Assembly: GCF_900162665.1 (NCBI RefSeq)
Contig: NZ_LT727812.1
Location: forward strand, 415,570 to 479,569
DNA length: 64,000 nt
Direction of reading: 5' to 3'
Source: Oceanobacillus sojae
Lineage (GTDB): Bacteria > Bacillota > Bacilli > Bacillales > Amphibacillaceae
The translations under genes and the position numbers were made by a program. How positions within the stretch are numbered: position 1 is the first letter of the stretch; the number at the start of each line of letters is the position of its first letter. Of the stretch, positions 28,241 through 28,752 are shown in pieces. The notes under the pieces were generated by a model. That model made no database searches. It saw only the letters and a program-made list of their open reading frames with translations, and was not told the origin of the DNA.

Positions 28241-28468
28241 TTACAAGATAGAAACCTTGACGATATTTTCAAATTTTATTTTGACAAAATCGGTATGACC
28301 AAACTTTTCAACGATTTTTATGTACTTGCCTTCATAATTAATGCTGTCAATATATCCCTGCTCCATATAAAAATTATTATTCTTACAGTGTTTAATGTTA
28401 ATTAGCAGGTTATCTTTATGCACCATCAACAACTGAAAACCAATTTCTTCTTGCACGTGTATATTCAA
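28241..28468 (-). CDS. Small protein resembling the C-terminal half of YolD
   Basis: A 75-residue protein. Its last 45 residues (EQGYIDSINYEGKYIKIVEK, then VKIKFENIVKVSIL) resemble the C-terminal beta domain of YolD-like proteins, which in B. subtilis are encoded beside SOS-induced Y-family polymerases. The usual YolD N-terminus is missing. The start is TTG, overlapping the stop of the upstream gene (TTGA), with GGAGTG seven bases before, so translation is coupled. The family call is from pattern memory and tentative. Confidence 0.55.
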   Translation of the reverse strand: MNIHVQEEIGFQLLMVHKDNLLINIKHCKNNNFYMEQGYIDSINYEGKYIKIVEKFGHTDFVKIKFENIVKVSIL

Positions 28469-28680
28469 GCACCGACACTCCTTTTCAACTGGCCAAATGA
28501 CAGTATGTTATCAATTTTAAAGCTTCTCACCTGTTTACGATAGTAGCAGTAAGCTAAAACTTTGGGGCTATTTATGCCAACCATTCTTATTATTCGTTGG
28601 CTGATCTTACCTTTAGAGTCTATATAATAGATCATTATCTTTTCTTTTTTCTCCATCGCCCTTGTTAAGAAACTGATCAT
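28465..28680 (-). CDS. Small WYL-like protein, first gene of a LexA-boxed operon
   Basis: A 71-residue protein starting at ATG 28680, chosen for its GAGGTGG ribosome site (a GTG three codons earlier overlaps that site). The segment KIMIYYIDSKGKISQRIIR, then VLAYCYYRKQVRSFKIDNIL, matches the beta-barrel pattern of a WYL domain, a ligand- or nucleic-acid-binding module, here without any helix-turn-helix. Two tandem LexA-type boxes lie directly between its promoter and start. Translation is coupled to the YolD-like gene downstream. Confidence 0.65.
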   Translation of the reverse strand: MISFLTRAMEKKEKIMIYYIDSKGKISQRIIRMVGINSPKVLAYCYYRKQVRSFKIDNILSFGQLKRSVGA

Positions 28681-28697
28681 TTTAACCACCTCAATAA

Positions 28698-28722
28698 GAA
28701 CTTTTGTTCTGAACGTTTGTTC
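28698..28722 (-). promoter_or_regulatory. Two tandem LexA (SOS) boxes
   Basis: GAACTTTTGTTC (28698-28709) and GAACGTTTGTTC (28711-28722) both match the Gram-positive LexA/DinR core GAAC-N4-GTTC exactly and are separated by one base. They sit immediately after the -10 element, where LexA would block transcription. Confidence 0.85.
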
Positions 28723-28724
28723 TT

Positions 28725-28752
28725 ATTATATCAAAACAGATGTAATTGTAAA
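28725..28752 (-). promoter_or_regulatory. SigA promoter of the SOS operon
   Basis: On the minus strand TTTACA (28747-28752) and TATAAT (28725-28730) are 16 bases apart, just upstream of the LexA boxes. Confidence 0.7.

Follow-up and report, generated by a model that had tools for sequence, protein, structure and literature searches.

Twin LexA-type boxes precede two small overlapping genes

The DNA analyzed here, a 64,000-nucleotide stretch hereafter called the window (genome G000, contig C17, positions 415570 to 479569), carries an operon of two small genes behind twin LexA-type boxes. The first gene encodes a stand-alone WYL-type protein, here called mini-WYL, and the second encodes a YolD-like protein. 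The boxes, the overlap of the genes, their conservation, their association and the predicted folds were all seen in the sequence. Given these features, we put at roughly one-half the probability that the two proteins are a LexA-repressed, damage-induced accessory pair for UvrX/PolY2-type translesion synthesis, often acting in trans. Under this reading, LexA would bind the boxes, DNA damage would induce the operon, mini-WYL would bind single-stranded DNA (ssDNA), and both proteins would be partners of the polymerase.

The window genome is Oceanobacillus-like, its best matches among named proteins being from Oceanobacillus. The pair (C17:443816-444258) is flanked by genes for a signal peptidase (PF10502) and an alpha-amylase (PF00128), and its features are listed in Table 1. 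The WYL open reading frame comprises 71 codons from the ATG at 28680; an alternative GTG start would give 74 codons, and comparison with relatives favored the ATG. The yolD-like gene starts with a TTG that overlaps the WYL stop codon (TTGA), giving a 4-bp overlap. The first-pass annotation had described two tiny translationally coupled genes in one operon, and the operon held. The WYL domain fills the whole protein, and there is no fused helix-turn-helix (HTH) DNA-binding domain.

Table 1. Features of the operon, in window coordinates
Feature	Position	Strand	Evidence
Stand-alone WYL-type protein (mini-WYL), 71 aa	28465..28680	-	PF13280, 21.6 bits (cutoff, 21.8)
YolD-like protein, 75 aa	28241..28468	-	PF08863, 29.5 bits (cutoff, 27.5); profile positions 30-94 of 94
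Shine-Dalgarno GAGGTGG of WYL gene	28686..28692	-	Read from sequence; 5 bp upstream of ATG
LexA-type box 2, GAACTTTTGTTC	28698..28709	.	Exact match; one base from box 1
LexA-type box 1, GAACGTTTGTTC	28711..28722	.	Palindromic motif, exact match; 2 bp past -10
Sigma-A-type promoter	28725..28752	-	TTTACA, 16-bp spacer, TG-extended TATAAT; consensus scan, 11/12 matches

The family labels given to the two proteins at first sight were upheld when profiles were run. The YolD-like protein scored above the PF08863 cutoff, and all 48 aligned YolD relatives matched that model at an E value of 0.01 or better. The WYL protein fell 0.2 bits under the PF13280 cutoff, but its predicted fold and its relatives agree with the label, 55 of the 77 aligned WYL relatives matching at an E value of 0.01 or better. 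Neither protein matched an NCBIfam model. Among the PHROGs, mini-WYL matched phrog_6785 (unknown function; E value, 1.2e-14), and both proteins weakly matched phrog_3352 over the same part. A second mini-WYL gene of the window genome (C15:239653-239862; locus L002) has neither a YolD gene nor an upstream box with one mismatch or fewer, and O. sojae locus L029 resembles it in both respects.

GAACN4GTTC is the LexA (DinR) operator consensus. Two exact copies of it, one base apart and right behind a SigA promoter, had been reported in the window, and the exact-match search and the consensus scan returned this very arrangement; the promoter, with TTTACA from 28752 and TATAAT ending at 28725, reads on the minus strand. 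The window holds three exact sites against 0.48 expected, and three or more occurred in 1 of 100 shuffles. Genome-wide, the exact 12-mer was not enriched (35 sites versus 34 for a reversed control), and taken by themselves the boxes are therefore weak evidence. Nor are promoter-like sites rare in this region, with 12 in 951 bp versus 5.3 in shuffles. The same scan found no terminator-like site, and Rfam gave no match between 27000 and 30500. Two exact boxes also lie upstream of this genome's lexA gene.

The boxes and the gene pair recur among relatives

The significance of the boxes comes from their conservation upstream of relatives. We assembled 133 distinct WYL loci from a search of the family and a scan of named contigs (17 of the 133), starting from 153 WYL matches and removing repeats and E values above 1e-5; eighteen of the matches listed (among them sequences with stops, fragments and weak matches) are left out of this set. 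An exact box lies within 150 bp upstream of 103 of these 133 genes, and a box with at most one mismatch lies upstream of 130. At the same loci, the reversed motif was found 0 times exactly and 3 times with at most one mismatch, three other rearranged motifs reached at most 2 and 7, and shuffled sequence gave means of 0.16 and 4.92. The 150 bp downstream contained GAACN4GTTC at 0 loci exactly and at 6 with at most one mismatch. Chance occurrence of the boxes was rejected on the strength of this recurrence. The 13-bp offset between the window's boxes is shared by 14 neighboring box pairs among the 133 relatives, the window's own pair included.

Boxes were also frequent in a wider sample of 75 order-wide, phage and plasmid loci, which included 40 loci picked from the matches listed, chiefly the top-scoring ones. 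An exact box was present at 51 of the 75 loci and a box with at most one mismatch at 71; without the 4 rows that repeat family loci, the counts were 47 and 67 of 71. As a separate observation, a pair of one-mismatch boxes, GTACAYTTGTTC and GAACNNNNATTC, recurs 42 to 43 bp apart (39 bp in L069) upstream of the Oceanobacillus WYL paralogues L020-L025, L036, L066 and L069.

WYL matches were found in 109 of 159 genomes of the family and in 294 of the 397 genomes that make up the order sample. A YolD gene lies directly downstream of the WYL gene at 75 of the 133 loci, its match starting between -58 and +82 bp from the WYL stop, so the pair as well as the boxes was recovered from related genomes. 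Counting against the accessory-pair reading, the other 58 of the 133 loci yielded no YolD next to WYL, and outside the family sample YolD is directly downstream at only 12 of 71 loci. (The 75-locus set has 16 YolD rows, of which two are on the opposite strand, one is upstream and one is a repeat.)

Together, these comparisons support the earlier proposal that the operon is under LexA-type control. With LexA on both tandem boxes, the transcription start would be covered and the operon repressed until LexA is cleaved under RecA stimulation. WYL and YolD would then be made together, through translational coupling.

Y-family polymerases lie beside the pair at some loci and far from it at others

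The first-pass annotation had presented the operon as one without a polymerase. A PF00817 profile search of the genome agreed with this for the window itself, where no Y-family polymerase was found; its two matches (C17:222630 and C17:31252) are on the same contig as the pair, and the nearer gene is about 220 kb away. The statement is only locally true, because UvrX adjoins the pair at other loci, and the idea of a module apart from polymerases in general was abandoned because other loci have a Y-family polymerase adjoining the pair or in its operon. A UvrX-type gene is the divergent neighbor of the pair at 8 of the 133 loci (L077, L115, L116, L121 [a fragment], L123, L144, L151 and L159), and all eight have an exact box on the polymerase side, 107 to 131 bp from the WYL start. 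WYL, YolD and UvrX follow one another on one strand at 3 of the 75 further loci (L170, L171 and L185). Two loci have other arrangements: a Y-family gene that overlaps the WYL stop (L188), and a gene for a LexA-DNA-binding-like protein between WYL and a polymerase (L169). Both polymerases score better with DinB than with UvrX.

A UvrX-type gene (E value of 1e-40 or better) was detected in 157 of the 159 family genomes, the window genome included. There, the gene (C17:31177-32496) is followed by a YolD-like gene (C17:32549-32869) that matched the 48-row YolD alignment, of which it is not a member, with an E value of 4.9e-8. The Pfam YolD model misses this gene, and the match of another YolD profile to it is circular, that profile having been seeded with it. 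A third, weak YolD match lies at C17:798816 (E value, 9e-4). Co-occurrence with UvrX was discarded as evidence for the pair; it says little when nearly every family genome has a UvrX-type gene (157 of 159, versus 109 with mini-WYL).

Twenty genomes in which the pair lies elsewhere were examined at their UvrX-type loci. No YolD was found within 1.5 kb of the fetched locus in 19 of the 20, a box with at most one mismatch was present in 18, and a similar C-terminal tail was recognized by eye in all 20 polymerases. Among 40 polymerases compared, 6 scored higher with DinB than with UvrX (L256 and L276-L280), and L256 belongs to these 20 genomes. We set aside complementarity between a lone UvrX and the pair, the contrast being weak: of 20 genomes with no mini-WYL match, 13 likewise had a polymerase with no YolD close by, and genomes that carry the pair are thus not alone in having a solitary UvrX.

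In a hand tally, the WYL-paired YolD was the only YolD detected in at least 15 genomes (G021, G061, G071, G082, G092, G121, G122, G123, G125, G142, G144, G146, G149, G150 and G152), the YolD counts per genome being lower bounds that missed the YolDs beside UvrX in G003 and G008. In these genomes the polymerase gene is at least 48 kb from the pair or on another contig.

Mini-WYL appears to keep much of an ssDNA-binding groove

The mini-WYL model (pLDDT, 90) has a fold that matches the WYL domains of PafBC, BrxR, CapW and DriD, including ssDNA-bound DriD and CapW entries. The YolD model (pLDDT, 93) is a predicted SH3/Sm-like barrel. A passage in the literature places YolD in the WYL superfamily (PMC4012209), and the shared superfamily rests on that statement and on the folds. 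Sequence profiles were rejected as proof of homology, hhalign having aligned only 22 columns of WYL and YolD (E value, 0.077). A search of solved structures with the YolD alignment returned nothing useful. No sequence relation was found between the pair's proteins and Sm/Hfq proteins, and the shared fold alone shows no function.

WYL domains are described as sensing ssDNA in PafBC, and an arginine pair, R211/R214, as needed in PafB, in passages of PMC11804915. Every one of the 77 aligned mini-WYL sequences has a basic residue at each position matching PafB R181, R204 and R208. At the R211/R214 equivalents, the first residue is basic in 62 of 77 and the second in only 4 of 77, which would count against an accessory pair with an ssDNA-binding member. 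The conserved positions suggest that mini-WYL keeps much of the basic groove with which WYL domains bind ssDNA and that it may do so too.

Other partners of mini-WYL and its mobile copies

HTH-like proteins were noticed beside mini-WYL at 9 of the 75 order, phage and plasmid loci; when eight of the small HTH-like next-gene proteins were scanned, with L213 left out, seven exceeded the PF01726 (LexA_DNA_bind) cutoff. At seven loci in plasmids and chromosomes (L169, L182, L184, L187, L196, L198 and L199), a LexA-boxed mini-WYL gene is followed by one for a 71- to 92-amino-acid, near-bare LexA DNA-binding domain; such a combination is possibly a split ssDNA-sensing SOS regulator or a LexA competitor. 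On the Aneurinibacillus thermoaerophilus plasmid pAT1 (L200; 2351-3192), mini-WYL starts 12 bp after an annotated lexA, and the 150 bp before the WYL start contain no box with at most one mismatch. LexA-boxed mini-WYL genes also lie upstream of an sbcD-like nuclease gene at four loci (L153, L156, L163 and L234); the two sbcD-like genes scanned, those of L153 and L234, both exceeded the TIGR00619 cutoff. These alternative neighbors of WYL genes, LexA-DNA-binding-like proteins and sbcD, count against the accessory-pair reading.

Such neighbors would be expected if mini-WYL were an SOS-induced subunit that senses ssDNA and belongs to a split WYL transcription factor, the DNA-binding parts of which are separate proteins; YolD and polymerases would then be other LexA targets that share the operon by chance. 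The HTH-like next genes in plasmids, a phage and several chromosomes and the one plasmid gene directly after lexA argue for this explanation, as does the ssDNA sensing by PafBC cited above; a passage of PMC4012209 adds that the commonest companions of WYL domains are DNA-binding winged-HTH (wHTH) domains. We nevertheless regard it as rather unlikely for the pair, since the window locus is without an HTH-like partner, YolD is the commoner neighbor in the family sample (75 of 133 loci), and an HTH-like neighbor was noticed at only 9 of the 75 further loci.

Mobile elements carry the gene as well. Virgibacillus phage Mimir87 has a WYL-YolD pair (annotated as a hypothetical protein and a YolD-like family protein), WYL matches were found in 24 phage and 12 plasmid records (with at least 80 percent query cover in only 1 and 10 of them), and some genomes have several copies, with 4 matches each in G073 and G077 and 7, counting fragments, in G143 among those listed. 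These records raise the possibility that the operon is mobile-element-derived SOS cargo, for phage or plasmid damage survival or as a small stress- or toxin-type module, that multiplied in Bacillales chromosomes with no host translesion role. The presence of WYL matches in 294 of 397 order genomes, mostly as one match per genome among the matches listed, makes this improbable, as do the placement of the window copy between signal peptidase and alpha-amylase genes (judged by flanking genes) and dN/dS values below 0.25 against O. sojae for both genes.

The window YolD lacks an N-terminal arm

The alignment made here revealed an N-terminal arm of full-length YolD (DRG..KW..MLPEH) that is present in 65 of the 75 adjacent YolDs and absent from that of the window. 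Ten of the 75 are armless, nine of them in Oceanobacillus (L019-L024, L027, L066 and window 28241-28468); L080 makes up the tenth and is broken across two frames. Among Oceanobacillus loci, L026 retains its arm. In the armless-YolD genomes G000, G073, G077, G078, G085 and G089, all UvrX matches are of the G000 type, with at least 80 percent identity. It is possible that loss of the YolD arm is linked to a change of polymerase in Oceanobacillus, perhaps in a single event.

Because its YolD lacks the arm, the window copy may be specialised or decaying. Against O. sojae, dN and dS were 0.064 and 0.39 for WYL (dN/dS, ~0.16) and 0.155 and 0.657 for YolD (dN/dS, ~0.24). Against O. neutriphilus, the values for WYL were 0.061 and 0.105 (dN/dS, ~0.58, on few changes), and at the locus of that species (L018) the WYL gene was followed by no detected YolD. 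The armless YolD, this ratio and the YolD-less locus all count against the accessory-pair reading. They would also fit a decaying remnant, in which the boxes are kept and the pair is a worn duplicate, redundant beside the UvrX operon at C17:31177 with its own YolD-like gene (C17:32549-32869), but with low dN/dS against O. sojae and with boxes and promoter intact, this is the least probable of the explanations.

Relation to known systems

UvrX-YolD has been proposed as the Gram-positive counterpart of Pol V, and a conserved C-terminal tail of the UvrX-type polymerase is the YolD-binding site proposed by Timinskas and Venclovas, as passages of PMC6511836 state. The window operon resembles the UvrX-YolD and YqjW-YqjX operons in its LexA-type control, its YolD protein and the presence of a UvrX-type polymerase in the genome; it differs in having no polymerase, a stand-alone WYL gene in first place and an armless YolD. 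A 2026 study of Bacillus subtilis saw no PolY2-YqjX interaction, cited the lack of any significant change in mutagenesis when yqjX is lost and took up whether PolY2 uses YqjX or YolD (PMC13335488).

The first-pass annotation also raised the possibility of an undescribed module. This stood only in part. A stand-alone, LexA-controlled yolD away from a polymerase is already described for Staphylococcus aureus (SACOL1986; PMC6511836), which like the window YolD is distant from the polymerase and has its own LexA site. The passages on SACOL1986 mention no WYL partner, whereas WYL and YolD overlap in an operon in the window. A search of openly licensed literature on WYL with YolD, UvrX, LexA or mitomycin found no stand-alone LexA-boxed WYL gene. 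What is new here is thus the LexA-boxed mini-WYL partner and its wide spread. Mini-WYL shares the WYL fold with PafBC, DriD, CapW and BrxR and keeps most of the basic ssDNA-groove positions, and it differs from them in having no HTH or further domain and in lying behind LexA-type boxes.

Model and significance

On the reading that we prefer, an accessory pair for translesion synthesis, two small Sm-like barrel proteins would help a UvrX/PolY2-type polymerase. Mini-WYL would mark or hold the ssDNA of a gap through its basic groove, and YolD, as a UmuD-like small subunit, would bind the conserved tail of the UvrX-type polymerase. In many relatives the polymerase is a separate LexA-boxed gene, and the pair would act in trans. 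In the clade of the window, the armless YolD and the YolD-like neighbor that UvrX has of its own may point to a specialised role for this copy.

More tentatively, mini-WYL could be the missing ssDNA-binding third subunit of a Gram-positive Pol V-like machine (UvrX/PolY2, YolD and RecA), LexA induced across the Bacillales, which elsewhere pairs with free LexA-type DNA-binding domains as an ssDNA-sensing SOS brake. The pair bears on the question of a Pol V-like mutasome in Gram-positive bacteria. In G082, G149, G150 and G152, the pair holds the only YolD detected, which opens this question to a single-deletion test. A LexA-boxed gene that is often beside YolD and sometimes in a UvrX operon is a concrete candidate for the missing mutasome component, and the recurrence of the boxes and the gene, sometimes immediately next to an error-prone polymerase, suggests an overlooked helper of mutagenic DNA repair.
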